Assembly (NCBI GenBank): GCA_019787685.1
Contig: JAHNUO010000001.1
Coordinates: 992,001-1,056,000, forward strand
From: Chiua virens
Taxonomy: Eukaryota > Basidiomycota > Agaricomycetes > Boletales > Boletaceae
Direction: 5' to 3'
Length of the DNA: 64,000 bases
The notes below the pieces were generated by a model, which did no database searches, had not been told where the DNA came from, and saw nothing but the letters and a program-made list of their open reading frames with translations. The translations under genes were made by a program, and so were the position numbers. Below, piece by piece: positions 4,568-25,341 of the stretch (position 1 is its first letter; every line of letters starts with the position of its first letter).

Positions 4568-4883
4568 CTTCTGCGACTCGGGCGACGGCGAAGGAAGAAA
4601 TCGCGTCTACCACGTGACCAATACTAATAGTACTCGGATTTCAAGTTACTTCGTCTGATTTCTCCTCTTCTCGTAGATATCTGTTTTTCCCCCATGATCC
4701 ATGACGAGTCGTACGATAGTCTCATTCGGTTTGTTTGATTGGGTCGTCGTTTACCTGACCGACGCGATCGGAACGGAAAGAGATTTTGGGGATACATGTA
4801 TACGAGCGTCCACCGGCCTCGAGGCGTTGCCTCGTCAAGGTGGTTTAACACCTTTTATAAAATATTGTTTTTTTCAATCTGTA
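4568..4883. other. Intergenic; relic of the array's terminal hairpin
   Basis: No gene is supported. At about 4817-4840 there is a compact hairpin (CGAGGC, 3-nt loop, GCCTCG, on the minus strand) followed on + by CAAGGTGG and an A/T-rich stretch. This resembles the hairpin plus AAGGTTAAATTTTTT seen at every unit boundary in the large array to the right. It may be the degenerate left (3') end of that array, now separated from it by the inverted-repeat element at 4884-5740. Confidence 0.4.
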
Positions 4884-5740
4884 GTTAGAGAACTGCACGG
4901 GTATGGATCACCCGTGACAGGTTACGGGTATGGGTGTCCATGGGTGGTTGCCATATATGGACCCGTGGACCCGCCACCCATCGTGACCAATACCTGCACA
5001 CCTAACCTCATATCTCATCACCATGGCCGCCATTTGATTTGTGGCTTCAAAGCTATTGAAATGGATCACATTTGATCCATTTCAATGGCTTTGGAGCTGC
5101 GCTTTTGCCTCAACACTTCCCGAGCTCGCCTCCTCCTTCTCTCACCCATTTGGACCATTTTCCCCCCATATCTCACCACCATTGCAGCCGTTCGATTCGT
5201 GGCTTCAAAGCCATCAAAATGGATCATATTTGATCCATTTCGCATGGCTTTGGGGCTGCGCTTCTGCCTCAACACTTCCCGAGCTTGCCTCCTCCTCCTC
5301 CTACCCCCTTGGACCGTTTTTACCCCGTATCTCGTCGCCATCGCTGCTGCTCGATTTGTGGCTTCAAAGCCATTGAAATGGATCACATTTGATCCATTTC
5401 AAATGGCTTTGGGGCTGCGCTTCTGCCTTGACACCTCTCAACTTCGCCTCCTCCTCCACCTACCCCCTTGGACCATCTTCATCCCATATCTCGTCACCAT
5501 TGCGGCCGTTTGATTCGTAGCTTCAAAGCCATCAAGCCTCATCATATCTGATGAGGTTTGCATGGCTTTGGGGCTGCAAATCATTCTCACCTTTGTATTC
5601 CATAGTTCCACCAGTTACCCATCATACCCGTCAGGGGCACCCGCAGGATATAGAACCCATGGGTTACGGTACGGGTTGTGACAGGTTGGGTACGGGTTGG
5701 TGCCACGACACCCGTGGGTTCACCCATGCAGAACTCTAAC
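4884..5740. mobile_element. Short non-autonomous DNA transposon with imperfect TIRs (hAT/MITE-like)
   Basis: The left end starts GTTAGAGAACTGCACGGGT. The right end, reverse complemented, starts GTTAGAGTTCTGCATGGGT. Both ends then carry many copies of ACGGGT/ACCCGT and the motif CCATGGGT, a subterminal pattern typical of hAT elements. No transposase is present. The interior is about three and a half tandem copies of a ~159-bp unit, each starting with a near-perfect palindrome. No convincing 8-bp target duplication was found, so an old or rearranged insertion is likely. Class assignment to hAT is inference. Confidence 0.6.
5042..5578. repeat. ~159-bp tandem repeats, each with a long palindrome
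   Basis: Palindromes of 50-60 nt begin near 5043, 5201, 5360 and 5520. Their arms read GCTTCAAAGCCAT... and ...ATGGCTTTGGGGC around a core such as GGATCA-CATT-TGATCC. The spacer reads TGCCTCAACACTTCCCGAGC and then a pyrimidine-rich CTCCTCCTCC stretch. The fourth palindrome has a diverged core (CATCA-TATC-TGATG) with compensating changes on both arms. ORFs reading through on both strands are by-products of the repeat. Confidence 0.8.
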
Positions 5741-6034
5741 AGGGGATGAGTCTACAATGAAGTTGAGTGAGCAGAAACAGCCCAAAAGGGAGGGTGTGCG
5801 CATGCGGGTGGCTGTGCTGCGTCGGCCTACTGAACGGACGAAGGATTTGAGCTCGAGTTCGAATGCCGCTTGGCGAGCCACATGGTTTTCGTTGAGCAAA
5901 AAAGGCAGCTTTGTATTGATAAGCGAAATAAGCGACGGGTAAGTACAGAAGCGAAATAAGCGAAATACGCGAAAAAAGCGTCGGATAGGTATGGTCAGAC
6001 TACTTTCCCGCGCCGTTCTCCCTTTAGTTTTTAG
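5741..6034 (-). mobile_element. Truncated unit U0: tail segment only (type II)
   Basis: From about 5874 the sequence matches the end segment of complete unit U1: CGAGCCACATGG, a GAGCAAAAAAGG stretch, repeated GCGAAATAAGCG and GCGAAAAAAGCGTCGG, then CGCCGTTCTCC just before the hairpin at 6035. Nothing of its repeat interior remains; the inverted-repeat element lies directly to its left. In the orientation of the Helitron gene this tail is the 5' end. The strand given is that orientation. Confidence 0.5.
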
Positions 6035-8041
6035 ACGAGGCGTTTCACCCGAGTCGTTGCCTCGTAAGGTTAAATTTTTTGGGTTTGTAAAATTGAGTAG
6101 GTAGTGGATTGTCTGAGTCAAGGTAAATTATGAGCAAGGTTTTATTTTATTTGAGTATTCAAGTATGTACAAAATTCAAATGTAGACTCATGTAGTTCAA
6201 TGTATGATTGAGGGTGAAACAAACATACCAGAATGAAATCAGGAAGGGTCAAGGGAAGTGGGGTAACCGGGACATGTCGCAGCAGTCTTGGATTGATGTA
6301 AAGGCGGGAATAGGACCTAATTAGAGTAAGTAGAGTGGGCACCAAGGGGCAAATCAACCGGTCGTGAAACGAACGTACCACATTAAAATTGAGACACAAA
6401 GGGGATGGAGGCAAGAGGAGTGACTGGGACATGTCGGGGCTGTTTGACGTCGATATAGAGGTGGGAATGGCAGCTAAATAGACTAAATGGAGTGAGCATG
6501 AATCGACGAATCGATCGACAGTGAAACAAACATACCAAAATGAAATTAAGATCTAGGGAGGATCGAGGCAACTGGGGAGACTGGGATGGATCAGGGCCAT
6601 TTTGGGTCGAAATAAAAGCGGGACTGGTACTTCAAAGGACCAAATGGAGTGAGTACAAAGTGGCAAATCGTTCAATAGTGAAACAAACGTACCAGAGTGA
6701 AATGAGTTGCAAGGAGGGTCGAGGCAAGTGGGGCGGCTTGGGACATGTCGAGGCCGTTTTGCGCAGATGTAATGGTGAGGATAGTACCTAAAAACACTCA
6801 ATGGAATGTGTACTGAGCGTTGAAACTATTGGGGGCGAAACAAACGCACCACAGTGAATTTGAGGTCCAAGGAGGGTCGAGGCATGTAAGATAACCGGGA
6901 CATGTCGGGGCCGTTTTGGGTCGACATAAAGGTGTCAATGGCACCTAGATAGACGTAATAGAGTGTGCCCCAAGTGGCGAATCAACCGGTCGTGAAACGA
7001 ACGTACCACATTCATATTTCAGTCCAAGGAGGCAAGGGGAGCGACTGGGACATGTCGGGGGTGTTTCGGGTCAATGTAAAGGCAGGAATGGCAACTAAAT
7101 AGACTCAGTAGAGTGGGCCCCAAGCGGCAAATCAATTGGTTGCGAAATGAACATACCACATTGAAATTAAGGTCCAAGGGGGGAGGGGAGGCAAGAGGAG
7201 CGGCTGGGACTTGTCAGGGTCATTTGAAGTCGACGTAAAGGTAGGAATGGAGGCTAAATAGACTAAATGTAGTGAATACAAAGCGACGAATCAATCAACG
7301 GCAAAACGAACATACCAGAGCGAAAATAAGATCTAGGGAGGGTCGAGGCAAGTGGATGTGTCGGGGCTGTTTCGGGTCGATGCAAAGATAGGAATAGCAC
7401 CTAAACACACTCAAAGGAGTGAGTACAAAGCGACGAATCGATCGGCGATGAAATGGACGTACCAGAGCAAATTTGAGGTCGAAGGGGGGGGGCTGAGGCA
7501 AGTAGTGTGGCCAGGATGTGTCGGGGCCATTTCAGGTCGATGTAAAGTTGGGAATGGCACCTCAATACACTCAATGGAGCGTGTATCAAGCGACAAAACG
7601 AACAGCGACAAAACGGACGTACCAGAGAGAATTTGAGGTCCAAAAGGGGGTGTCAAGGCAAGCAGGGTGACCGGGATGCATCAAGGCTGTTTCAGGTCAA
7701 TGTTAAGGTAAGAATAGCACCTGAATACACTACATAGAGCAAGTACGAAGCATCAAATCGACCGGTTGCGAAACGAACATACCAGAGTGTGCAACACCAT
7801 GAACGCACAATTGCAGCATGCACCAAATATGGACATCGATCAGAGGCACCAGCCGAGCCACATGGTTTCGTTGAGCAAAAAAGGAAGGAGTGTATTGGTA
7901 AGCGAAAGAAGCGACGGCTGTCGAGATAGACGAAAAAAGCGTCGGGTAGGCCTCACAGCCGACACAGCCGCGACAAGCGAAAAAAGCGTCGGATAAGTGT
8001 GGTCACGACTGTCCCACGCCCCGTTCTCCGCTCACTTTTTG
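6035..8041 (-). mobile_element. Array unit U1: satellite-filled Helitron-like unit
   Basis: Begins on + with a 31-nt hairpin at 6035-6065 (ACGAGGC stem, GCCTCGT), then AAGGTTAAATTTTTTGGG and an A/T-rich leader that reads as a polyadenylation-like region on the minus strand. About 11 copies of the ~157-bp monomer follow, marked by GAAACGAACGTACCA or variants at roughly 6214, 6367, 6523, 6679, 6836, 6992, 7145, 7303, 7449, 7608 and 7768. The type II tail runs from about 7853. No coding gene is supported. Small ORFs on both strands shift frame from monomer to monomer because the period is not a multiple of three. Confidence 0.7.
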
Positions 8042-8164
8042 ACGAGGCGTTTCACCCGAGTTGTTGCCTCGTGAGGCTAGTTTTTTGGGGGGTTGTAAAG
8101 TTTGAGTAGGTATAATAGATTGATTTTGGATATCATGGTTACAAATGTATAGTAGTAGTACAAA

Positions 8165-11100
8165 TCATATTTGCAAGTTTCTAAATACTTCATTCCAAAC
8201 AACATTTGTAACTTTGGTAGATTGGTGATTGTCTGGATCAGAAGGAAAGAGAACTTTGATGTTTCTGGGATGAGTACAACGTGAAAGAGCAACATAGAGT
8301 TGACCATGAGAGAAAACAGGAGAAATCAAATTGAGACCAACATGGTTGAGAGATTGACCTTGAGATTTGTTGATGGTCATTGAATAGGCCAAATGAACAG
8401 GAAATTGCAAGCGACGAAAAGGAACAGGAGAGTCTTCAAGACCACTATCCAAAGCCATGCGAGGGATGAAGACAACATTGTCATTGTCATTGGCACCCAA
8501 TATGCGACACTCCAAAATGCGGCGAGTGGATCTGATGAGTCTCAAGCGAGTACCATTGTAGAGACCATGAATGGGATCCAGATTGCGCAACAACATGAGA
8601 GGGGCACCTTCCTTGAGCTCCAGGTTGTGAAGGGGAAAACCTGAGGGATTGAAGGTATGGAGAACTTCTGGCTGGACATAGTCATATTCTGTGTCAGTGA
8701 CAGAGTCAGCACTGAGATAAGTCAACTTCTGGTCAGGTGCCACTGAGTTGAGGATGGTAGAGTTGATGTCATGGACCTGGACATTCCTAGGAGCAAGAAT
8801 GGTACGATCCAAAAAGTACTGATCAGGCAATGGCTGGTCTCTGGCCAGGAGCTGAGAGTAGATGGCATCAATGAGGGACTGCAAGTCATCACCAGAGCGC
8901 ATGTGTTGAGGAAGGATGAGATCACCATCAGTGGTGCCAATTTGAAGAAGCTGTTGTGCCCATTGATCAGATTCAGGATCATGGCCAAGACGCATATTTT
9001 GAAGGAGATAGTGAACAGTCATGTTGGCCCAGAGGTTGGAGTGTGTAAGAGTGGCAGGGACAATCTGCTCCCTTGAACCATGCTGAATGACAGGAAGAAT
9101 TTGTCTAAAGTCCCCACTGAAGAGGACAGTGATACCTCCAAATGGCTGGTTTCTATTGAGAAGATCCTGAAGAGTACGATCCACAGACTCAACCACATGA
9201 TGATGCTGAGCACCCACTTCATCCCAGATGATAAGAGATGTCTGCTCAAGAAGCTGGTGATTGAGATCATCCTTCTTGATGTTGCAAGTGCTCTGTTCAT
9301 GGCAAGGAATGGGAATCTTGAAGCGTGAATGGGCAGTACGACCACCAGGGAGCAGAAGAGAAGCCAAGCCAGTGGATGCAACACAAAGGACAATCTGACC
9401 TCTTGCACGAACAGCAGAAGCAATGAGCTTGGCCAGATAGGTCTTGCCACAACCACCACCACTATGAATGAACATCATGGATCCAGTGGAGTTGATGACA
9501 CTGTTCATGACTGCATCATAGAGAGCTCTCTGTTGAGGATTCAAGGTAGGGAGACCTCTGTCCACAAAGGCTTGCTGTTCCTGTCTGTCATATGCTCTCT
9601 GCTCATTGATGAGTTGGTTACCCTGGAATTCCTCCCAAATGTGCTGTGGTCTAGGCATGGATGGATAGTCTTCCAAGCGTTTTCCATGTCTCCTGAGATC
9701 TTTGGCTATGAGATGCAAGCCATAATCAAAGACTTGGTCCTGGGTAGGGTCAGGAATGTTGAGAGTGTGGATGAGATAATGCTGTAAATCATCACAGAGG
9801 TTTTGCTTGGATGCCTCCCATAAGCGATCTGGGTCTACAGGAGAGCAATGGACCAGGATGATGACAAACAAACGACGAAGTTGATAGCCCATGCTAAAAT
9901 GAGCAGCCTCCTGAAGGCACAACAACCATTCTCTATCATCCTGCAAGAGACCATGTGCACGACAGGCCTCTTTGAAAGATTCATGGAGATGGCCATTGAG
10001 AGTACGAAGATCTTCAAAGGAAGTAGCACCTATGAGAAAAAGTGATGAATATCAAACCATCTCTATACAATCAATGAACTGACCTTTGACCACAGTGAGC
10101 AAAAGACGCAAATAGAAAGCCTCTCCAGCAGTGGCAGGAATGGAATACATTCTTCCAATGGCCTTGTATCTCTGACGAACCTTCCAAACAGCATGGCCTT
10201 GATGCCAGACAAACCTCTTGGGAAAGTCTTGATAGAGGTAGTCATGTGCACCAGCAGCAATGAGATCAGGATCCTGGTTTGCCTTGAACCACCCAAGAAG
10301 TTGAGTGTCCTTTGCATTGTTGACAACATCCTGCAAAGCAGCACCAGCCTGAAAGACGACATTCTGATTACCTGGGAGATGGACAGAAAGACGATAGATG
10401 GCTGGCCATTCCATGTGCATGGGGAACTCAAAGATATTGTGACAGGCCTGAGTAGAGGAGATGTACCTGGCATCAAGATAAGAACGAATCTCATCATGGC
10501 CTTCTGTCTGAATAGTAGCACGGTCTGGACCCTTGTAGATGTACTTGTGAATATATTTGACAGCCTTGATAGAGCCACAGACTTCCAGATTGATATGACA
10601 GTCAAACTCAACCACCAACTCCCTTGGATGAGGGACCACATGTCTGTTGTCAAAAGTGTCCTCTCTCTTTTGAATGGTCCTGCCATTGTCAGGGCGAGCA
10701 TAGTCAGGATAGCCATCCTCTTTGATGACAGTGACAGGAGTGAATGGCTTTGGAAAGCGCTTTTTGCAGACATTGTTCTCAATACACCTCTGAGGAGAGC
10801 AAGGACCATGAAGCATGACTCTAGAGATGGTAGCATGAAGTTGGGGATGAAGCTGAGGATCTGGAATCTGAGCAGAGATGATGGCATCCACTTGTTCTGC
10901 AACACGAATCTTGTCTGGCTCCTCCAAGAAGATCAAGAGATGCATGTGAGGCAGACCACGTTTTTGATACTCGATGGTGTAGACAAAGCCTGCCACTGTA
11001 CCAAAGTAGCCACCACGAATTTTCTTAAGCAAGGCTTGCTGTTTGGCATGAAAGACCCTTGTGACCAGATCAGGCCTATCCACAGCACTTTGACCTGTTG

Positions 11101-12677
11101 TGATGATCAGATGATGATAAGACACAATAAGGATAAAAACAAACCTGGAAGCAAATTCTGAGTGATTTCTGGCCAGGATCCATTGGCAGTCATGGTGAGA
11201 AAGAGGTCAGGCTTTCTATATTCACGACAGATGGCCAAAGAGTCTTGAAGGAGCTGTTGCATATATCGAGGACCACCCTTGTGAGTGGAGGGCAGAAGGA
11301 CACGACCAACTTGAGCCATGTCCTGAACACCATCTTGAGCCAAACGGTCTTGCAAACCCTGATAGAGATCGGCCCTGAGTCTTGTCTGATTGTTGGCAGC
11401 CCAAGTGAGGTTACACTGATCAATGGAAGCCCAACCATCACAGATCAACTGTTGAAAGAGTCTGCCACCCTTGAAGAGATTGGGTGGTTCTATTCCTGGT
11501 GGACGAACATGAAGTCTGTAAGCATACCACAGCAACTGGGTGACCTTCTTGGAGCGATGAGCACGACCATGACGAACATCTTGGAGTGGAATGTTCAAAT
11601 GCCAGCCTTCCTCACCATGTGGAAAGAAGAGAACATAGTGGAGTGGAAGATAAGATGGATGGAGATTGCTGATGCGATGCAGGCCACCACCTTGAAGACG
11701 AAGGACAATATCACGATCCACTCTTGTGTTCTGTTCACTATCACCAGGGACAATGGCAGCTATCTCATCCACAGTTGGCAGATTGTATCTTCTACCATCA
11801 TTGTTCTGCTGCAGATGAAGTCTCATGCGTACATTGGTGTGCTCCTCTGCAGGCTTTGCCTACATAGAACCAATAATCAGATTGTGTGACTCAAAAAGAA
11901 TGATAAAGTTAAACTAACCCTCATAATTTCATAGGCCTGCTTGTAGAGTGGAGCATAAGGATGAATATCCCTCAGAGTAGTATGCAAATCCAATAAGATT
12001 GCAGGATCCAATTGAGGATTGCCTTGGACACGCCTGTCAGTTGCCTCCTGTGGATCATAGATGTAGAGCTGAGCAAAGGAGGGCTGAAGACCTTCTGGTG
12101 GGATAAGGGCACCCATGAGGTGATGGAGTGTACCATGAATACGAAAGGATGAAGGACCAGAACCTTGGATGGCTTGGTTGTCGACATCCACACCCACAGA
12201 AGTAAAAGCCAAAGTATTGTTATATTGGCGTATCTTCCTTTTGAACTCTCTATTATCCTGAGGGTCATCAAAGAGCTGCTGAAGGACATGTGGCCATTGT
12301 TGAACAGGGGGAAGATTGACCTGGCCTTGAAGACAGCAGATGCCAAAGCGAGGATTATGAATGCCAGAGTTTGTAAGCTTTTCTGAGATGAAGTGGAGAG
12401 CATGGCAATTTGGACATTGAATGTTCATGGGACCCAAAGAATGAATTTGGACAGGCTCAGTATATGGTCTTCCACCAGGAGGGATAGGATAGAGTGGTTG
12501 AGGATCAATAGAATCATGAGAGCTGCTAGAGCCAGAGTCATCAGGATCAGGATTGGGTGGTTGAGGGACATCTTCAGAGGACTCAGAACCAGAATCAGAT
12601 GGATCAGAATTGTGAGGATTGGGTGGTGGTGGTGGTGGTGGTGACAGTGGTGAGCCAGGACTGCTTGGAGGTGACAT
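8165..12677 (-). CDS. Helitron Rep-helicase (HUH endonuclease fused to PIF1-type helicase)
   Basis: Drives rolling-circle transposition: the Rep domain nicks and joins DNA strands and the helicase unwinds. From ATG 12677 (MSPPSSPGSP) the chain runs through a Pro-rich segment, then a Helitron N-terminal domain (NIQCPNCHALHF; QLYIYDPQEA). Introns near 11880-11824, 11160-11115 and 10083-10036 join in frame (EIMR|AKPAEEHTN, LLPG|QSAVDRPDLV, VVKG|ATSFEDLR). Rep motifs: the HUH in RGLPHMHLLIF (about 10945) and the two-tyrosine helix KYIHKYIYKG. Helicase motifs: Walker A HSGGGCGKTYLAK, Walker B LIIWDEVG, motif III FSGDFRQILPV, and late motifs NKSQGQSLNHVG and QLYVALSRCTHP. The total is about 1,490 residues, full length for the family, with no stop or frameshift in this part. 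Confidence 0.9.
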
Positions 12678-12708
12678 AGGAGGGCCTGGAGCTGAATTAG
12701 ATCTATAC

Positions 12709-13709
12709 AGTCAAAGATCAGAAACATATTGATCAATATAGTCAATCAAGACATGCCTTTGTCTTTGCTGGTCCTGCTCATATTGTTCTGCAGACCTTTG
12801 ACTATGTTCACTCAAAGCCTCTGAGAGAAGCCTTTGTGACAGCTGCCTAACTTGATCCATGTATATCTCCTCCTGAGTATGTCTTTCATGGATTTCCTGA
12901 TGTAAGTTCTGCTGTTGTACCTCTGAACGATAGTGACGCTCTAACTCATCACGTTGTTGCAATTGAATTCGTAGTGCCTGAAGATGATGCTGATGTTCTT
13001 GTTCTTGCCATTGCTGTTGTGCTCTGAGAGCATACAGGTGCTGCTGTTCCTGCTCCTGTCGTTGTTGCTGTGCTCTCAAAGCATACAAATGCTGCTGTTC
13101 CTGCTCTTGCCATTGTTGCTGTACTCTGAGAGCATGCAGACGCTCCTGCTCCTGCTCCTGCCACTGTTGTTGTGCTCTGAGAGCATGCAGACGCTCCTGT
13201 TCTTGCTCCTGCCACTGTTGCTGAGCTCTGAGAGCATGCAGACGCTCCTGTTCCTGTTCCTGCCACTGTTGCTGTGCTCTGAGAGCATACAGACGCTGTT
13301 GTTCCTGCTCCTCCCATTGCCGTTGTTGTTGTTGTTGATCAGTAGCATCTTGAAAGTTAATGGTATGCTGATACATTTGATAATTTGGCATGGAATGAGC
13401 TAAGGAAACAGGGGCAGCAGGAGCAAGCACAGAAGATCCAGGCATAGGGGGAGGTGCCTGAGGAACAGGAACATTGTTGACATGGCGCTGTCTGCGCTGG
13501 CGACGTTGCTCATGATCATTATTAAAACCAGCCATCAATTGAGCAGTATAATCAACACGCTCAGGAGGGTTTGGATAGCCCATAGGTGGACCTGCTGGAA
13601 CGTAAGAAGGCTGACGACGGGTTGGTGGAGAGCCCAGAGTACGCTGATCACGCTCAGCTTGGCGAGCAGCATTCTGAGCACGTTGGGGAGAAGTGGGAGG
13701 AGATGACCT
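12709..13709 (-). CDS. Gln-rich upstream ORF of the Helitron, with 18-residue repeats
   Basis: From a splice-acceptor-like site at about 13709 an open frame reads SSPPTSPQRAQNAARQAERD, passes MGYPNPPERVDYTAQLMAG (ATG at 13583), and enters six to seven copies of an 18-residue repeat of the type LHALRAQQQWQEQEQERL. It ends VLIDYIDQYVSDL at a TGA (12709-12711). The next codons in the same frame continue without interruption into the Rep-helicase start. This is therefore either a separate small protein or the N-terminus of Rep-helicase cut by one stop codon. A strongly helical, Gln-rich coiled coil is predicted by eye. The true first exon was not found. Confidence 0.55.
12985..13325 (-). repeat. 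54-bp coding minisatellite in the Helitron ORF
   Basis: On + the unit reads GAGAGCATGCAGACGCTCCT followed by TGCTCCTGCC-type triplets. Six to seven copies are present with a 54-bp period, which keeps the reading frame (18 residues). Copies differ mainly at third positions and in His/Tyr at one site, so expansion is older than very recent slippage. Confidence 0.8.
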
Positions 13710-14565
13710 GGATCAAAACATTAAAGTTAGCCCATGGTAGCTGCAATCATGAAATTGAACATACATGATATCTGAAAACAAAGAGGAGCTATAATAAAAG
13801 AGAACCAAAGAGATCTTGCTGTCTTCTTCGAATGGGTCTCCAGTCAATAGCCACTCTATCTGGACGATACCCTCGCTTACGCAGAACTACTCTTTAACGC
13901 AGAGTATTACGATGTGACGTCACAGGTAAATCACACGAACCTGGGGACCAGATATATCGTCTATCCCTAAACGTAGTGGCTTAACGTCCCACTAAACCGC
14001 CCCTTGTGCACTATGGGGAACAGCAACATTATCCTTATTTATAACGGTGGACGACCGTATGTGCAGACGTGGCTATAGAGTGTCTTTCTCTGGTTATCAC
14101 GTAACCAACGGGCAAAGTGCTAGTGCCAATCTCCTTAACCCTGGAGTCCGGGTATGATACAATCACTACATTCATATTCAAAAAGATGACATTCAATGAT
14201 GAGATCATGGCTTGAAACACTCACCAAAGGCACAAAAGTGCTATCAGACACAAAGGATCAGCAAGGGCAAGGCTTGCCAAGCAAGATCTGTGTCAGAAAA
14301 ATGAAAATGCAATGACATGAGACACTCACCAGAAGCACAGATGTGTCTGGGGACACAAATGGAGAAAATCCAGGCCAAAATGGCCTTATCAGTGAAGATC
14401 TACACTGATAAGATCGCGATTTGAAGGGTTTATGGGTGGAAACTCACCTTTGTTGGGTATCCTGGGCAATTCCAGGGAAGAGCGAATTTTTGGTGATTTT
14501 TTGGTGATTTTTAGAGAATTATTGGTGGGGATATGGAGGAGAGGCACCCCAAAGTGTTGATGATA
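13710..14565 (-). other. Helitron 5' non-coding interior
   Basis: No coding exon can be supported with confidence. On the minus strand several GTGAGT-type donor sites occur (near 14225, 14330 and 14450), each after a short stretch ending in CTTTGG or CTGG-like sequence. A chain of small 5' exons leading into the Gln-rich ORF is therefore possible. Short direct repeats (GACACTCACC; TTTTTGGTGATTTT twice near 14490-14515) are present. Confidence 0.4.
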
Positions 14566-14750
14566 GTTCGAGTCGAAGGGGTGACGGCCCAAATTGAAGG
14601 GATGCCCAAAAAGGCAAGCACGTGGCATTTAGCGACTGAAGCGACCGACGCGACCGACGCGACCGAAGCGCACAGCCGAGCGAGGAGCGAGACAGCCGAA
14701 ATAGGCGTCGGGTATGACTCTCCCACGCCCCGTTCTCCGTTAACTTATAG

Positions 14751-16347
14751 ACGAGGCGTTTCACCCGAGTCGTTGCCTCGTAAGGTTATTTTTTTGGGGT
14801 TTGTAAAGTTTGAGTAGGTAGTGGATTATCTGAGTCAAGGTAAATTATGAGCAAGGTTTTATTTTGTAGACTCATGTAGTTCAATTTATGATTGACAGTG
14901 AAACAAACATACCAGAGTGAAATCAGGAAGGGTCAAGGGAAGTAGGGTAACCTTGACATGTCACAACAGTCTTGGGTTGATGTAAAGGCAGGAATAAGAC
15001 CTAGACAGAGTAAGTAAAGTGGGCACCAAGGGGCAAATCAACTGGTCATGAAACAAACGTACCACATTGAAATTGAGACAAAGGGGGATGGAGGCAAGAG
15101 GAGTGACTGGGAGGTGTCGGGGCTGTTTGATGTCGATATAGAGGTGGGAATGGCAGCTAAATAGACTAAATGGAGTGAGCATGAATCGACAGATTGATTG
15201 ACAGCGAAACGAACATACCAAAATGAAATTAAGATCTAGGGAGGATCGAGGCAACTGGGGAGACTGGGATGGATTGGGGCCATTTCGGGTGGAAGTAAAA
15301 GTGGGACTGGTACCTAAATGGACCCAATGGAGTGAGTACAAAGCAGTGAATCATCCAGTAGTGAAACGAACGTACCACAGTGAATTTGAGGTCCAAGGGG
15401 GGTCAAGGCAAGTGGGGCAGCTTGGTACATGTCAAGGCCGATTTGTGCAGATGTAAGGGTGATGATAGCACCCAAATACACTCAATAAAATGAATAGTGA
15501 GCGCTGAAACGATCGGGGGCGAAACGAACATACCACAGTGAATTTGAGGTCCAAGGGGGGTCAAGGCATGTAGGGTAATGGGGGCGTGCCGGGGCCATTT
15601 CGGGACAACATAAAGGCATGGATGGGACCTAAATGGACATAGTAAAGTGTGCCCCAAGCAGCGAATCAACCGGTTGTGAAACGAACGTACCGCATTGATA
15701 TTTCGGACCAAGGGGGAGGGGAGGCAAGGGGAGCGACTGGGACATGTCGGGGGTGTTTCGGGTCGATGTAAAGGTAGGAATGGTGGCTAAATAGACTAAA
15801 TGTAGTGAGTATGAAGCGACGAATCGATCGACGGCAAAACGAACGTACCAGAGCGAAAATAAGATCTAGGGAGGGTCAAGGCAAGTGGGGTGACCGGGAT
15901 GTATTGGGGCTGTTTCGGGTCAATGTAAAGGTGGGAATGGGACCTAAATATGCTCAATGGAGTGTGTACCAAGTGGTGAAACGATCGGTGGTGAAACGAA
16001 CGCACCACACTGAATTTGAGGTCCAGGGGGTCAAGGCAAGTGGGGTAACCAGGAGGGGTTGGGGCCATTTCGGGCCGACATAAAGATTGGAATGGGACCT
16101 AAATACACTGAATGGAGTGTGTACCGAGCGACGAAACAAACAGCGGCGAAACGGACGTACCAGAGAGAATTTGTCCAAAAGGTGAGGTCGAGTCGAAAGC
16201 GAAGGGACAGCCCAAAAAGGCAACCACGTGGCATTTAGCGACTGAAGCGACCGACGCGACCGAAGCGCACAGCCGAGCGAGGAGCGAGACAGCCGAAATA
16301 GGCGTCGGGTAAGATTCTCCCACACCCCGTTCTCCGTTAACTTATAG
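14751..16347 (-). mobile_element. Array unit U3: satellite-filled unit
   Basis: The hairpin at 14751-14781 is followed by AAGGTTATTTTTTTGGGG and the A/T leader. About nine ~157-bp monomers have anchors near 14900, 15048, 15202, 15361, 15520, 15677, 15836, 15992 and 16148. A type I tail starts at about 16186 with few GCGACCGAC repeats. Monomer spacing is 148-159 bp. No gene is supported. Confidence 0.7.
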
Positions 16348-18787
16348 ACGAGGCATTTCACCCGAGTCGTTGCCTCGTGAGGCTAGTTTTTTGGGGGGTT
16401 GTAAAGTTTGAGTAGGTAGTGGATTATCTGAGTCAAAGTAAATGGTTTTATTTTATTTGAGTATTCAAGTATGTACAAAATTCAAATGTAGACTCATGTA
16501 GTTCAATTTATGATTGACAGTGAAATAAACATACCAGAGTGAAATCAGGAAGGGTCAAGGGAAGTGGGGTAACTGGGACATGTCGCAGCAGTCTCGGGTT
16601 GATGTAAAGGCGGGAATAGGACCTCAATAGAGTAAGTAGAGTGGGCACCAAGGGGCAAATCAACTGGTCGCGAAACAAACGTACCACATTGAAATTGAGA
16701 CAAAGGGGGATGGAGGCAAGGGGAGTGACTGGGACATGTTGGGGCTATTTGATATTGATATAGAGGTGGGAATGGCGGCTAAATAGACTAAATGGAGTGA
16801 GCATGAATTGACGAATCGATCGACAGCGAAACGAACGTACCAAAATGAAATTGAGATCTAGGGAGGATCGAGGCAACCGGGGAGACTGAGATGGATCGGG
16901 GCCATTTTGGGTGGAAGTAAAAGCAGGACTGGTACCTAAATGGACCCAATGGAGTGAGTACAAAGCAGCGAATGATTCAGTAGTGAAACGAACGTACCAC
17001 AGTGAATTTGAGGTCCAAGGGGGGTCGAGGCAAGTGGGGCGGCTTGGTACATGTCGAGGCCGTTTTGCGCAGATGTAAGGGCGAGAATGGCACCCAAATA
17101 CACTCAATGGAATGAGTACTGAGCGCTGAAACGATCGGGGGCGAAACGAACGTACCACAGTGAATTTGAGGTTCAAGGGGGGTCAAGGGATGTAGGGTAA
17201 CCGGGGCGTGCCGGGGCCGTTTCGGGTCGACATAAAGATATGAATGGGACCTAAATAGACGTAGTAAAGTGTGCCCCAAGCGGCGAATGAACCGGTTGTG
17301 AAACGAACGTACCACATTGAAATTTCAGTCCAAGGGGGAGGGGAGGCAAGGGGAGCGACTGGGACATGTCGGGGGTGTTTCGGGTCGACGTAAAGGCATG
17401 AATGGGACCTAAATAGACGTAGTAAAGTGTGCCCCAAGCGGCGAATGAACCGGTTGTGAAACGAACGTACCACATTGATATTTCAGTCCAAGGGGGGAGG
17501 GGAGGCAAGGGGAGCGACTGGGACATGTCGGGGGTGTTTCGGGTCGACGTAAAGGCAGGCATGGCACCTAAATAGACTCAGTAGAGTGGTCCCCAAGCGG
17601 GAAATCAATTGGTCGCGAAATGAACGTACCACATTGAAATTTCAGTCTAAGGGGGGAGGGGAGGGAAGAGGAGCGGCTGGGACTTGTCGGGGCCATTTGA
17701 AGTCGATATAAAGGTAGGAATGGTGGCTAAATAGACTAAATGTAGTGAATACGAAGCGACGAATCGATCGACGGCAAACCGAACGTACCAGAGCGACAAT
17801 AAGATCTAGGGAGGGTCGAGGCAAGTGGGGTGACCGGGATGCGTAGGGGCTGTTTCGGGTGGATGTAAAGGTGGGAATGGGACCTAAATATGCTCAATGG
17901 AGTGGGTAGCAAGTGGTGAAACGATCGGTGGTGAAACGAACGCACCACACTGAATTTGAGGTCCAAGGGGGGTCAAGGCATGTAAGATAACCGGGACGTG
18001 CCGGGGCTGTTTTGGGTCGACATAAAGGTGTGAATGGCACCTAAATAGACATAATAGAGTGTGCCCCAAGCGGCGAATCAACCGGTTGTGAAACGAACGT
18101 ACCACATTGATATTTCAGTCCAAGGGGGAGGGGAGGCAAGGGGAGCGACTGGGACATGTCGGGGGTGTTTCGGGTCGATGTAAAGGTAGGAATGGTGGCT
18201 AAATATACTAAATGTAGTGAATATGAAGCGACGAATCGATCGACGGCAAAACGAACGTACCAGAGCGAAAATAAGATCTAGGGAGGTCAAGGCAAGTGGG
18301 GTGACCGGGATGTATTTGGGCTGTTTCGGGTGGATGTAAAGGTGGGAATGGGACCTAAATATGCTCAATGGAGTGAGTACCAAGTGGTGAAACGATCGGT
18401 GGTGAAACGAACGCACCACACTGAATTTGAGGTCCAGGGGGGGTCGAGGCAAGTGGGGTAACCAGGATGTGTTGGGGCCATTTCAGGCCGACGTAAAGAT
18501 TGGAATGGGACCTAAATACACTGAATGGAGTGTGTACCAAGCGACGAAACAAACAGCAACGAAATGGACGTACCAGAGAGAATTTGTCCAAAAGGTGAGG
18601 TCGAGTCGAAAGCGAAGGGACAGCCCAAAAAGGCAAGCACGTGGCATTTAGCGACTGAAGCGACCGACGCGACCGACGCGACCGAAGCGACCGACGCGAC
18701 TGAAGCGCACAGCCGAGCGAGGAGCGAGAGAGCCGAAATAGGCGTCGGGTAAGACTTTCCCACACCCCGTTCTCCGTTAACTTATTG
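16348..18787 (-). mobile_element. Array unit U4: satellite-filled unit
   Basis: The hairpin at 16348-16378 carries GAGGCTAG after it, the variant shared with the Helitron unit's left end. About 14 monomers run from near 16513 to 18557. The type I tail from about 18598 has an expanded run of GCGACCGAC/GCGACCGAA repeats. Two adjacent monomers near 17290-17560 are almost identical, a sign of recent local duplication. Confidence 0.7.
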
Positions 18788-21095
18788 ACGAGGCGTTTCA
18801 CCCGAGTCGTTGCCTCGTAAGGTTAAAATTTTTGGGATTGTAAAATCAAGTAGGTAGTGGATTGTCTGAGTCAAGGTAAATTATGAGCAAGGTTTTATTT
18901 TGTAGACTCATGTAGTTCAATGTATGATTGAGGGTGAAACAAACATACCAGAGTGAAATCAGGATGGGTCAAGGGAAGTGGGGTAACTGGGACATGTCAC
19001 AGCAGTCTCGGGTTGATGTAAAGGTGGGAATAGGACCTAAACAGAGTAAGTAGAGTGGGCACCAAGGGGCAAATCAACTGGTCGCGAAACGAACGTACCA
19101 CATTGAAATTGAGACAAAGGGGGATGGAGGCAAGAGGAGTGACTGGGACATGTTGGGGCTGTTTGATATTGATATAGAGGTGGGAATGGCGGCTAAATAG
19201 ACTAAATGGAGTGAGCATGAATTGACGAATCGATCGACAGCGAAACGAACGTACCAAAATGAAATTGAGATCTAGGGAGGATCGAGGCAACTGGGGAGAC
19301 TGGAATGGATCGGGGCCATTTCGGGTGGAAGTAAAAGCGGGACTGGTACCTAAATGGACCCAATGGAGTGAGTACAAAGGGGCGAATGATTCAGTAGTGA
19401 AACGAACGTACCAGAGTGAATTGAGTTGCAAGGAGGGTCGAGGCAAGTGGGGCGACTTGGGGCATGTCGAGGCCGTTTTGCGCAGATGTAAGGGCGAGGA
19501 TAGCACCTAAATATACTCAATGAAATGAGTACTGAGCGCTGAAACGATCGGGGGCGAAACGAACGCACCACAGTGAACTTGAGGTCCAAGGGGGGTCAAG
19601 GGATGTAAGGTAACCGGGACGTCTCGGGGCCGTTTCGGGTCGACATAAAGGTGTGAATGGCACCTAAATAGATGTAATAGAGTGTGCCCAGAGCGGCGAA
19701 TTAACCGGTCATGAAACGAACGTACCACATTGAAATTTCGGTCCAAGGGGAGGGGAGGCAAGGGGAGCGACTGGGACATGTCGGGGGTGTTTCAGGTCGA
19801 GGTAAAGGCAGGAATAGCACCTAAATAGACTCAGTAAAGTGGTCCCCAAGCGGGAAATCAATTGGTCGCGAAATGAACGTACCACATTGAAATTTCAGTC
19901 CAAGGGGGGAGGGGAGGCAAGAGGAGCGGCTGGGACATGTCGGGGTCATTTGAAGTCAATGTAAAGGTAGGAGTGGCGGCTAAATAGACTAAATGGAGTG
20001 AATATGAAGCGGCGAATCGATCGACGGCAAAACGAACGTACCAGAGCGAAAATAAGATCTAGGGAGGGTCGAGGCAAGTGGAGTGACCAGGATGCGTCGG
20101 GGCTGTTTTGGGTCGATGTAAAGGTAGGAATAGCACCTAAATACACTCAATAGAGTGAGTATAAAGCGACGAATCGATCGACGGCAAAACGAACGTACCA
20201 GAGTGAAAATAAGATCTAGGGAGGGTCAAGGCAAGTGGAGTGACCGGGATGCGTCGGGGTTGTTTTGGGTCGATGTAAAGGTAGAAATAGCACCTAAATA
20301 CACTCAATAGAGTGAGTATAAAGCGACGAATCAATCAGCGATGAAACAGACGTACCAGAGCAAATTTGAGGTTGAAGGGGGGGTTGAGGCAAGTGATGTG
20401 ACCGGGATGTGTCGGGCCATTTCGGGTCGATGTAAAGTTGGGAATGGCACCTGAATACACTCAATTGAGCGTGTACCAAGCGACGAAACGAACAGCGACG
20501 AAACGGACGTACCAGAGAGAATTTAAGGTCCAAAAGGGGGGGTCAAGGCAAGTGGGGTGACCGGGATGTGTCGGGGCTGTTTTGGGTCGATGTAAAGGTA
20601 GAAATAGCACTTAAATACACTCAATGGAGTGAGTACAGAGCGACGAACCCCTCAGCAGTGAAATGAACGTACCAGAGTGAATTTGAGGTTGAAGGAGGTC
20701 AAGGCAAGTGGGGTGACCGGGACGCGTCGGAGCCTTTTCGGGTGGGTGTAAATCAGAGAATGGTACCCAAATAGACTACATAGAGTAAGTACGAAGTGCC
20801 AAATCGACCAGTTGTGAAACGAACATACCAGAGTGTGCAACATCATGAACACACCACCACGTCGATTGTAGCACGTACCAAATATGGACATCGATCAGAG
20901 GCGCCAGCCGAGCCACATGGTTTACGTCGAGCAAAAAAGGAAGGATTGTATTGGTAAGCGACGGTTACAGAGATAGCCGACACAGCCGCTCACACCCGAC
21001 ACAGCCGACACAGCCGAAAAATACGCGGTACGCGAAAAAAGCGTCGGATGAGCATCGTAAGTACTGTCCCACAGCCTGTTCTCCGTTAAACTTAT
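18788..21095 (-). mobile_element. Array unit U5: satellite-filled unit
   Basis: The hairpin is at 18788-18818. About 13 monomers run from near 18935 to 20815. A type II tail follows from about 20904 (CAGCCGAGCCACATGG, GAGCAAAAAAGGAAGG, CACAGCCGACACAGCCG, GCGAAAAAAGCGTCGG). Its last monomers closely match those at the end of U1, which has the same tail type, so tail and adjacent monomers travel together. Confidence 0.7.
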
Positions 21096-23709
21096 TGACG
21101 AGGCGTTTCACCCGAGTCGTTGCCTCGTAAGGTTAAATTTTTTGGGTTTGTAAATAGTGGAGTGTCTGAGTCAAGGGAAATTATGAGCAAGGTTTTATTT
21201 TATTTGAGTATTCAAGTATGTACAACATTCAAATGTAGACTCAAGTAGTCAAATTTATGATCAACAGCAAAACAAAGATACCAGAGTGAAATTAAAATCC
21301 AGGAAGGGTTGAGGGAAGTGGGATAACTGGGACATGTTGTGGCAGTCTCATGTCAATGCAAAGGTGGGAATAGGACCTAAATAGAGTCAGTAGAGTGGGC
21401 ACCAAGGGGCGAATCAACCGGTTGCGAAACGAACGTACCACATTGAAATTGAGATATAAAGGGGGATAGAGGCAAGAGGAGTGGAGATGTCGGGGCTGTT
21501 TGATGTCGATATAGAGGTGGGAATGGTGGCTAAATAGACTGAATTGAGTGAGTATGAATCGATGAATCGATCGACAGCGAAACGAACATACCAAAATGAA
21601 ATCAAGATCCAGGGAGGATCGAGGCAACTGGGGAGACTGGGATGGATCGGAGCCATTTCGGGTGGAAGTAAAAACGGGACTGGTACCTAAATGGACCCAA
21701 TGGAGTGAGTACAAAGGGGCGAATCATTCAGTAGTGAAACGAACGTACCACAGTGAATTGAGTTGCAAGGAGGGTCGAGGCAAGTGGGGCGACTTGGGGC
21801 ATGTCAAGGCCATTTTGCGCAGATGTAAGGGCGAGGATAGCACCTACATATACTCAATGGAATGAGTACTGAGCGCTGAAACGATCGGGGGTGAAACAAA
21901 CGCACCACAGTGAATTTGAGGTCCAAGGGGGGTCAAGGCATGTAGGGTAACCGGGGCGTGCTGGGGCCATTTCGGGTCGACATAAAGGCATGAATGGGAC
22001 CTAAATAGATGTAGTAAAGTGTGTCCCAAGCGGCGAATCAACCGGTCGTGAAACGAACGTACCACATTGATATTTCAGTCCAAGGGGGAGGGAAGGCAAG
22101 GGGAGCGACTGGGACATGTCGGGGGTGTTTCGGGTCGATTTAAAGGCAGGAATGGCACCTAAATAGACTCAGTAGAGTGGGCCCCAAGCGGGAAATCAAT
22201 TGGTCGCGAAATGAACGTACCACATTGAAATTAAGGTCCAAGGGGGGAGGGGAGGCAAGAGGAGCGGCTGGGACTTGTCAGGGCCATTTGAAGTCAATGT
22301 AAAGATAGGAATGGTGGCTAAATAGACTAAATGTAGTGAATACGAAGCAACGAATCGATCGACGGCAAAACGAACGTACCAAAGCGACAATAAGATCTAG
22401 GGAGGGTCGAGGCAAGTGGGGTGAGCGGGATGCGTCGGGGCTGTTTCGGGCGGATGTAAAGGTGGGAATGGGACCTAAATATGCTCAATGGAGTGAGTAC
22501 CAAGTGGTGAAACGATCGGTGGTGAAACGAACGCACCACAGTGAATTTGAGGTCCAAGGGGGGTCAAGGCATGTAAGATAACCGGGACGTGCCGGGGCTG
22601 TTTTGGGTCGACATCAAGGCGTGAATGGGACCTAAATAGACGTAATAGAGTGTGCCCCAAGCGGCGAATCAACCGGTCGTGAAACGAACGTACCACAATG
22701 ATATTTCAGCCCAAGGGGGGAGGGGAGGCAAGGGGAGCGACTGGGACATGTCGGGGGTGTTTCGGGTCGACATAAAGGCGTGAATGGCACCTAAATAGAC
22801 ATAATAGAGTGTGCCCCAAGCGGCGAATCAACCGGTTGTGAAACGAACGTACCATATTGATATTTCAGTCCAAGGGGGAGGGGAGGCAAGGGGAGCGACT
22901 GGGACATGTCGGGGGTGTTTCGGGTCGACATAAAGGCGTGAATGGCACCTAGATAGACATAATAGAGTGTCCCCCAAGCGGCGAATCAACCGGTGGTGAA
23001 ACGAACATACCACATTGAAATTTCAGTCCAAGGGGGAGGGGAGGCAAGGGGAGCGACTGGGACATGTCGGGGGTGTTTCGGGTCGATGTAAAGGTAGGAA
23101 TGGTGGCTAAATAGACTAAATGTGGTGAATATGAAGCGACGAATTGATCGACGGCAAACCGAGCGTACCAGAGCGAAAATAAGATCTAGGGAGGGTCAAG
23201 GCAAGTGGGGTGACCGGGATGTATTTGGGCTGTTTCGGGTCGATGTAAAGGTGGGAATGGGACCTAAATATGCTCAATGGAGTGAGTACCAAGTAGTGAA
23301 ACGATCGGTGGTGAAACGAACGCACCACACTGAATTTGAGGTCCAGGGGGGGGTCGAGGCAAGTGGGGTAACCAGGATGTGTTGGGGCCATTTCGGGCCG
23401 ACGTAAAGATTGGAATGGGACCTAAATACACTGAATGGAGTGTGTACCAAGCGACGAAACAAACAGCAACGAAATGGACATACCAGAGAGAATTTGTCCA
23501 AAAGGTGAGGTCGAGTCGAAAGCGAAGGGACAGCCCAAAAAGGCAAGCACGTGGCATTTAGCGACTGAAGCGACCGACGCGACTGAAGCGACCGAAGCGA
23601 CCGACGCGACTGAAGCGCACAGCCGAGCGAGGAGCGAGACAGCCGAAATAGGCGTCGGAAATCGTCGTCGTGAGTCGCTCCCACACCCCGTTCTCCGTTA
23701 ACTTATTGA
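21096..23709 (-). mobile_element. Array unit U6: last unit and right boundary of the array
   Basis: The hairpin starts at 21096. About 15 monomers run from near 21267 to 23469, and the type I tail starts at about 23508. The tail ends ...CGTTAACTTATTGA and then host sequence begins at TGTTTTGGG. On the minus strand this is host ...AAAACA followed by TCAATAAGTTAACGG, matching Helitron insertion after an A with a 5' TC. The inner copies have the hairpin at this point instead. Confidence 0.7.
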
Positions 23710-23814
23710 TGTTTTGGGTTGTCAGCTCGGTAGCAATCAGGCCACCTGGCCGGGCCGTTGTCACGTACACAGCGGCAACCTGCAAGTTGTCTCCCCACAG
23801 TCACCTCCGAGACA

Positions 23815-25341
23815 ATGCGTTTCACGATCTCGAACCAGACGTCCGACAGTCTCCTTTGCCAGTTTGACAAGGTCACAAGGAACGAGTACATCCTAGTGCC
23901 CCCGTTCTCCGAAATCGAGGTCTCCCCTAAATGCAGCACTCTCTTGTTCGCCAAGCGCCCGCATGATGCGACCTTCAAAGAACTCGGAGATATCGTTGAA
24001 AGCACAAGTTCTGTCGCAGTGAAACTTACTATGGCATCCGGAAGAAAGTGGCAGCGGCTCACGGGGAAAGGTGACTCTCCCTGGTCCATATATCGCAATC
24101 GGGTGTGTTCTCATGCGCTCGAAACACCCTGGGTTGTCCTAATCATTATGCACATCATGCGTTAACAGATATCCCGCAAACACCATGCATTGATCGTGTT
24201 CCCGTATAGAGATACCTCGTGCTTCCTTGCAAGTATTCCCAATTCGGTTCCCCTTTCGTCATTGATGCTGCCAGGTCAGTCTTGCCCTTTCTTTTGAAAA
24301 TCACCCTTGCGATCTCCCTGCATAGGGACACACGAAACAATGGCGTTTTATGGATGGCCTATCTCACAATGCCAGTCCAAACCCTTGGATACCCAGTTAC
24401 ATGCAGGGATTCGCGTGCTTGACATCCGACTCTCCATTGTAGATGGGAAACTCATCGCATACCATGGAATATTCCCGGAAGTTACCCCATTCGCAGATAT
24501 CCTCATTACCTTGCATAATTTTCTCACTACGCCTGCCACTGCTAGTGAAACGGTTGTAGTTTCTATCAAACAAGAAGACTCTGATAGGAAATCATTTCCT
24601 GAACTAGTCTACGAAGAGATCGTGACGTCGCCCGGCGGAATTGAAATGTGGTATCTTGACAATCAAATACCCAATCTTGGCGAAGTCCGGGGGAAAGCAG
24701 TCATGTTCAGTCGTTTTGGTGACAATTCCGCCAATGGAATCCATCCCCCTATTTGGCCAGACAGTGCAAAGGAAGGTTTCCAATGGGAATGTGATGGGAC
24801 GCTGGTACAAGTTCAAGACTGGTGAGTTCGCGTGTCTATGCATCCTTCAAAACCAAGATATTTGCCAAAACTAAATGGAACGTGTGTTGCTTACCGGGAG
24901 TGACACAGGTATGGCATCCCGTCATTTTTGTCTATCTCCGAAAAGACCTCGCTGGCAACGGAAATCCTCGTTTCACCTCCTGACTCTCCGAATCCCACCC
25001 TTGCGATTTCATTCATGTCAGCTTCATCTATACCCTTGGCCTTACCCTCTATTATTGCATGCGGATTCGGATGGCCAAAATGGGGTCTGGGGTTCGAAGG
25101 TGTCAACGAGCGTGTCGGGAAATGGTTGCTGGATCAACTGGGTGCAGATTACACCAATTGGCAGCGAAACTGGTCCGATTATGGCCATCCGAAGTGTACA
25201 GCTGATAGAACTGACAACTCACGGTTTGGCCCGTTCGCTGACGCGGGCCCGCGGATAAGGGGATGGGCGCTGATGGATTACTATGAAGATCCTATCGGTG
25301 CAGGCGTTATACAGTTACTTGTGGAATGCAATTTCAGATGA
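23815..25341 (+). CDS. PI-PLC X-like phosphodiesterase
   Basis: Belongs to the PLC-like phosphodiesterase superfamily (phosphatidylinositol-specific phospholipase C X-type barrel), which cleaves glycerophosphodiester bonds through two catalytic histidines. From ATG 23815 the N-terminal 90 residues (MRFTISNQTSDSLLCQFDK) form a beta-rich lead domain. After an intron ending near 24171 come VPLSSLMLPG, then a second intron and THETMAFYGWPISQCQ, placing the first His in LPGTHETMA. The second His is in GKLIAYHGIF, with RVLDIRL before it and ETVVVSIKQED after it. The last exon (from about 24906) ends RGWALMDYYEDPIGAGVIQ and a stop at 25341. The Gly/Arg set around GKAVMFSRFG is retained. An alternative upstream start at 23758 exists. 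The Helitron array ends 105 bp upstream. Confidence 0.85.

Follow-up and report, generated by a model that had tools for sequence, protein, structure and literature searches.

How do Helitrons come to stand head to tail in long arrays: by the copying of one element into a chain or by the arrival of one element after another? The question is raised by a 64,000-nucleotide stretch of the mushroom Chiua virens (contig JAHNUO010000001.1, here C1, bases 992001-1056000; the assembly has 48.3 Mb), hereafter the window, in which seven Helitron units (U0 to U6) lie head to tail between positions 4803 and 23709. The closest named relative of one protein encoded in the window is from Paxillus (71%), followed by those of other mushroom-forming fungi, which makes a host in the Boletales likely. 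The original prediction had counted six units led by a common hairpin and multiplied by a rolling circle that failed to stop, with a likely master copy among them. The array consists of seven complete Helitrons of several subfamilies; in our judgment, it was likely built up by repeated insertion at the end cleavage sites of resident Helitrons, and the Rep-helicase of the elements probably performs this stacking. The limits of the elements, the exact joints between them, closest relatives located elsewhere, and the mixture of two end families are observed; from these we infer the order of arrival and the joining chemistry.

The hairpin that had been taken for the start of each unit (GACGAGGCGTTTCACCCGAGTCGTTGCCTCGT) recurs at all six of those limits (≤1 mismatch) and in none of 100 shuffled sequences. 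Its role is nevertheless reversed: the Rep-helicase is encoded on the minus strand, so the element runs from right to left, which makes the hairpin (head) the 3′ end of the Helitron and the tail on the right its 5′-TC end. The count also changes, since an additional unit, U0, lies at the left with a 3′ end that is related to, but different from, the hairpin end of the other six (the main family); over the last 30 bp, U0 and main-family ends are 64% identical at the head and 71% at the tail. Other parts of the original prediction held: ∼157-bp monomers fill five units, a Rep-helicase locus occupies one, and each satellite unit is a non-autonomous Helitron whose ends are those of the Rep-helicase element.

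These ends are not confined to the window. Genome-wide, 63 hairpins and 44 tails were found at ≤3 mismatches, against 0 and 1, respectively, for reversed-pattern controls, so that a weak tail match may be due to chance. Eight arrays (A1, in the window, to A8) carry the ends and contain 2 to 9 complete units each. A hand count gave 43 complete elements in arrays and 8 two-ended elements outside them; the comparison sets aside older copies with only one recognizable end, and such copies are undercounted because the end patterns tolerate few mismatches and the sequence examined consisted of the stretches around matches.

Joints and outer edges were compared within these stretches for 67 heads (≤5 mismatches) and 57 tails (≤4 mismatches). 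All 36 unit-to-unit joints in the eight arrays are exact, reading CTCG|TC with no extra bases, and 33 were also flagged as exact in a separate analysis. The remaining 31 heads, which are outer, are all preceded by A (duplicated loci included). Outer tails are followed by T in 17 of 21 cases with duplicated loci and at 13 of 16 independent loci, the exceptions being on contigs C6, C12, and C14; no second recognizable head was found within 120 bases after any outer tail in these stretches. Seven of the 36 joints bring the U0 family against the main family (one each in A1 to A5 and two in A8), and at all seven both partners are complete to the last base, which site-specific joining explains. At joints between main-family elements, recombination may also have played a part.

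The ordinary insertion site is illustrated by an element on C30 (with copies in C66 and C4) that splits a satellite unit. The joined flanks match U1 of the window without a gap at 77 of 80 bases, and the uninterrupted relative has A and T once each, so that the element is TC...CTCG in an A^T site. The flanks of a genuine insertion into the satellite are thus adjacent in its uninterrupted relative, which bears out the earlier argument that the Rep-helicase unit of the window is not a simple insertion of this kind. A second case of one element inside another is the right edge of A8 (C48:29353), which lies ∼200 bp within an inverted Helitron-ended element and has a right flank 97% like a unit interior. 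When the outer flanks were compared with the units, there were 36 end joints versus two independent element-inside-element places (C30/C66/C4 and C48:29353), with 6,931 internal AT sites in 39 sequenced array units and 0.070 AT sites per base in the stretches examined. Selection for safe landing would not pick out single end positions in arrays that offer thousands of sites. Targeting of ends fits with the fact that the ends are where Rep must cut for transposition.

The relationships between units were analyzed with 44 fully sequenced units, in pairs within size classes; the long A7 and A8 units fall outside this set. Of the 30 satellite-filled array units, compared with one another, none has its nearest relative in its own array (permutation mean, 3.8; P for ≤0, 0.045 to 0.055), and thus the pattern expected of a rolling-circle concatemer, in which neighbors are mutually closest at origin, is seen in 0 of 30. 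Mean identity is 91.2% between adjacent units (n = 20) and 91.7% between units of different arrays (n = 379). By contrast, the 2,440-bp type to which U4 belongs is 99.1 to 99.5% alike across A1, A3, A6, and A8, and the 1,233-bp U0 type is 98.9 to 99.8% alike across A1 to A5, with left flanks that are only 44 to 54% alike; outside the window, this type stands at the right edge of A2 and at the left edges of A3, A4, and A5. Identity falls beyond the unit limits in most of the near-identical pairs compared.

Units were clustered into subfamilies at thresholds of 0.88, 0.90, and 0.92. Ordered neighbor pairs common to different arrays were never above chance (9 observed versus 9.9 expected, 3 versus 3.9 at threshold 0.90, and 1 versus 1.5). 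Pairs of the same subfamily within an array numbered 22 at 0.88 (28.8 expected; P = 0.054), 3 at 0.90 (10.1 expected; P = 0.0004), and 1 at 0.92 (5.9 expected; P = 0.005). Members of one subfamily thus tend to be in different arrays, perhaps because near-identical direct repeats are lost or because some form of target immunity operates.

Each of these relatedness results is the reverse of what a chain derived from a single unit would show, and they disfavor the mechanism of the original prediction, in which replication runs past the 3′ hairpin and a multiunit chain is inserted in one step. Such concatemers would also give exact CTCG|TC joints, tandem Helitrons have been read in this way in passages of published work (PMC4067079, PMC5876387), and A6 contains one pair of adjacent units that are alike (96.0%). 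The absence of same-array nearest relatives, the deficit of same-subfamily pairs at the 0.90 threshold, a shared unit order that does not exceed chance, and the mixture of two end families nevertheless leave this explanation with a small probability. We consider it still less probable that different elements fused extrachromosomally through their joined ends and that each mixed circle inserted once: the end chemistry would be the same, and young U0 copies at array edges beside older-looking partners would be explained, but up to 9 different units would be needed per circle, and neighbors common to arrays show no excess.

Homologous recombination, by which circular elements would integrate through crossover in terminal sequences common with a resident, has more to recommend it but is also unlikely. 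Joints in register would also result if a circle crossed over with a resident element. Main-family elements do have common ends, and crossovers would cause the reassortment of heads and tails observed among subfamilies, which is itself a sign of recombination or of template switching between elements. However, hybrid ends would result from a crossover in the tail, yet U0 and its partner have complete ends at seven joints; it would also move the U0 tail to the far side, where it is absent at the far right of A1, A3, A4, and A5. Further, the terminal 150 bp of U0 and six partners tested have exact common words of 9 to 26 bases.

Several observations weigh against serial insertion at resident ends, or limit how far it extends. 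The permutation result for nearest relatives is borderline as a deficit, and its force is against a local excess. Heads and tails of the same unit do not covary (Mantel r, ∼0; P = 0.5), the association of head and tail across a joint being r = 0.16 (P = 0.07), and one end differs in two near-identical pairs, units 5 and 31 (0.75 over the first 150 bp) and units 10 and 27 (0.87 over the last 150 bp); differing ends and the lack of head-tail covariance imply that recombination between elements acted too. A neighbor pair of the U3-U4 type recurs in A1 and A3, with the 150 bp to the left of the unit 99% alike, and A6 has the adjacent pair at 96.0% mentioned above. The outer tails without T on C6, C12, and C14 do not conform to the target, and all evidence comes from one genome.

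The order of arrival provides a further difficulty. Growth at the A|TC edge only would make rightward units younger, but terminal branch length does not vary systematically with position in the array (rho = 0.13; P = 0.48; n = 30) and thus gives no growth polarity. The terminal branches of U0 are short (0.0009 to 0.0049) and the copies young-looking, yet U0 is leftmost in four arrays, and of the 20 units to its right in A1, A3, A4, and A5, 14 lack a relative of ≥98.5% identity at 90% coverage among the fully sequenced units. Young-looking copies of the U0 and U4 types beside units without close relatives point to insertions at the 3′ edge or within arrays, for which the target is G^T rather than A^T. 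Source copies that have been lost, or that lie outside the compared set, could mislead this reading.

With these points taken into account, we still prefer serial insertion at the ends of resident Helitrons, and it might proceed as follows. The Rep protein of autonomous copies would nick a resident element at its normal transposition cut and join the incoming element there, the candidate sites being the 5′ edge (A|TC), the 3′ edge (CTCG|T), and an existing joint (CTCG|TC), the last having the same form as the joint in a circular Helitron intermediate. Every product would again carry the same cut sites, by which arrays would grow. The satellite would be cargo within some elements and copied along with them, and copies that are too similar within one array might later be removed by recombination, leaving mixed arrays. 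We lean slightly toward a more general proposal, in which Helitron ends are homing sites: the transposase would prefer its own excision cut sites on residents, across subfamilies and families, and tandem arrays would be serial mixed insertions rather than products of rolling-circle replication.

The distribution of the satellite was followed with a 321-bp monomer probe, which gave 227 matches. Among the matches listed, with 40 of 83 candidates scored, all lie in loci with these Helitron ends, and no satellite array outside transposons was found among them. The best matches listed beyond the probe itself (95 to 97%) are in other arrays, and many more are 72 to 94% alike. Judging by these similarities, the repeats seem to have traveled with the elements as their filling and not to have been newly amplified where they stand. 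U0 contains its own ∼159-bp tandem repeat (5005-5535), the consensus of which is unlike the 157-bp monomer, and a second Helitron family is therefore also filled with repeats.

The Rep-helicase element of the window does not have the special position of a master copy. Six other elements that combine main-family ends with a Rep match lie in arrays (two each in A6 and A8 and one each in A3 and A7), and others stand alone, e.g., C1:1613372-1620708 and C21:118068-125359. U0-type ends occur on two longer Rep-bearing elements, C48:13370 and C30:170758, the Rep sequences of which are 81% and 79% identical to that of the window, respectively. One further Rep-helicase copy (C23:487596) was considered as a candidate for having other ends; the 2 kb examined on its head side yielded no head, and the contig ends ∼2 kb further on. 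An element at C12:1350760-1357457 is a hybrid, with a main-type 3′ end, a U0-type 5′ end, and a Rep 79% identical to that of the window; its right flank is C, not T.

Some copies outside the arrays appear to have multiplied with their surroundings. Two 100% identical element copies on C14 (302575-303913 and 307534-308872) are in opposite orientations with the same adjacent flanks and are likely to represent an inverted duplication of a host stretch. Element copies at C36:111091, C51:22904, C51:98290, and C64:66879 have nearly identical left flanks, indicating that they were copied along with a host repeat or a duplicated contig region.

The elements carry a Helitron protein. The Rep-helicase frame is open across three exons separated by GT-AG introns of 50 and 54 bp, and its product matches PF14214, PF05970, and PF21530 (Helitron_like_N and PIF1 domains). 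It contains HMH, which we take to be the HUH motif, and YIHKY, presumably the two-tyrosine motif; residues H60/H62 and Y191/Y195 are invariant in comparison with six relatives. The protein thus has the HUH, two-tyrosine, and PIF1 helicase composition of canonical Helitrons (Helitron1). Insertion between A and T without target duplication also agrees with this class (3 of 16 independent outer tails lack T), as does the 5′-TC terminus, the tails ending in GA (TC in the Helitron direction) at all 36 joints. The 3′ end does not: both the main and U0 families end in CTCG, not CTRR. The main-family hairpin folds as single-stranded DNA with a 7-bp stem and a 17-nucleotide loop (−6.0 and −6.1 kcal/mol and z scores of −1.7 and −1.8 for two variants), and the stem reaches the 3′ end; in U0, the hairpin has 6 bp and lies ∼17 nucleotides before the 3′ end (z score within −1.7 to −1.8). 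Canonical Helitrons have the hairpin about 10 to 12 nucleotides before the 3′ end. The window elements work like Helitrons and carry a Helitron protein but have a variant end, and they are not strict CTRR members. Beyond the helicase, the interval 8165-9946 has no additional Pfam match. Assignment to Helentron or Helitron2 is ruled out by the A^T target, which is not TT or T rich, and by the lack of that endonuclease domain.

Abutting Helitrons are already known, and comparison (with abstracts and passages of the papers cited) places the novelty of the arrays in their scale, their mixture, and the test against concatemers. Tandem Helitrons are described in bats, silkworm, rice, and maize, where they are read as bypassed termination or neighboring insertions; in Myotis, the 5′ end of one Helitron abuts the 3′ end of another, with empty-site support (PMC4778049). 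Ends likewise abut head to tail in C. virens, but in this genome complete copies are commonly joined, as many as 9 units stand in one array, several subfamilies and both end families occur together, and the concatemer model fails when tested. Among fungi, Metarhizium acridum has three tandem copies, for which insertion twice at the 5′ end or rolling-circle replication was left open, and Fusarium oxysporum has self-insertions (PMC5148889); those elements are Helitron2-like and the tandem is one case, whereas eight arrays bear on the choice here. Plant centromeric Helitron arrays (Xiong et al. 2016, cited in PMC12628747) are also long, but they contain truncated copies, and many have several 5′ ends and one 3′ end, whereas the units here are complete with both ends. 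In transposable element dimers ascribed to insertion site preference (McGurk and Barbash 2018, cited in PMC12628747), tandem copies are put down to the repeated use of a single site, and the doubled elements are of one type, whereas different subfamilies meet at Helitron ends here. A literature search covering listings, abstracts, and passages found no described case of mixed end-to-end Helitron arrays.

Individual features also have parallels. DINE-1 and oyster Cg_HINE are non-autonomous rolling-circle elements filled with tandem repeats, as here, but they are of the Helentron type and have T-rich targets (PMC4067079, PMC7492417), in contrast to the A^T target and stacking of whole elements in C. 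virens. The HELPO1 and HELPO2 Helitrons of the mushroom Pleurotus share the A^T site, TC start, Rep-helicase, and coexistence of autonomous and non-autonomous copies, and HELPO2 also departs from CTRR, ending in CTTG (PMC4289320); the elements here differ in their 3′ CTCG and in a main-family hairpin that reaches the end. The word “tandem” does not occur in the main text of that paper (PMC4289320). In vitro, the transposase of Helraiser makes precise cuts in the sequence formed by joined ends (PMC5876387), which is in line with serial insertion at ends, and Helraiser insertions outside AT are few (46 of 1,751; PMC4778049). Tandem Helitrons have been cited in support of rolling-circle transposition (PMC5876387). 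The arrays favor insertion for this genome and, as neighbors are not mutually closest, tandem arrangement alone is no proof of rolling-circle copying. Should ends serve as targets, arrays would offer comparatively safe landing sites within the 48-Mb genome, and their growth would provide a simple route to long tandem blocks of satellite-bearing elements.

Table 1. Features of the window array (window positions) and the genomic arrays with the same ends (contigs)
Feature	Location	Strand	Details
U0	4803..6035	-	Second (U0) family, non-autonomous, complete, 1,233 bp; contains a ∼159-bp repeat of its own; 3′ end on the left, preceded by host A (4802)
U1	6036..8042	-	Non-autonomous Helitron with satellite filling, 2,007 bp; closest relative 96.7%, array A3
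U2	8043..14751	-	Helitron with Rep-helicase, 6,709 bp; ends common to satellite units
Rep-helicase reading frame	8165..11826	-	1,185 codons; exons 11826-11145, 11094-10084, 10029-8165
U3	14752..16348	-	Satellite filling, 1,597 bp; closest relative 93.6%, A3
U4	16349..18788	-	Satellite filling, 2,440 bp; 99.4-99.5% to units of A3, A6, A8
U5	18789..21098	-	Satellite filling, 2,310 bp; 98.9% to A5 unit
U6	21099..23709	-	Satellite filling, 2,611 bp; 97.5% over 94% to A7 unit; 5′-TC end, then host T at 23710
3′-terminal hairpin at unit joint (example)	6034..6065	-	Others at 8041, 14750, 16347, 18787, 21097
A1	Window		7 units
A2	C2		3 units
A3	C3		9 units
A4	C11		2 units
A5	C19		6 units
A6	C19		7 units
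A7	C35		4 units
A8	C48		5 complete units and tail of a sixth

Two further features were noted in and near the array. A 51-bp repeat (6.4 copies, 12989-13316) lies upstream of the Rep-helicase frame within an open frame on the minus strand (12711-13583); this frame has no Pfam match and is possibly an N-terminal exon of the Rep-helicase. Approximately 600 bp past the right edge of the array, a frame at 24307-24825 encodes a PI-PLC-X domain (Pfam).

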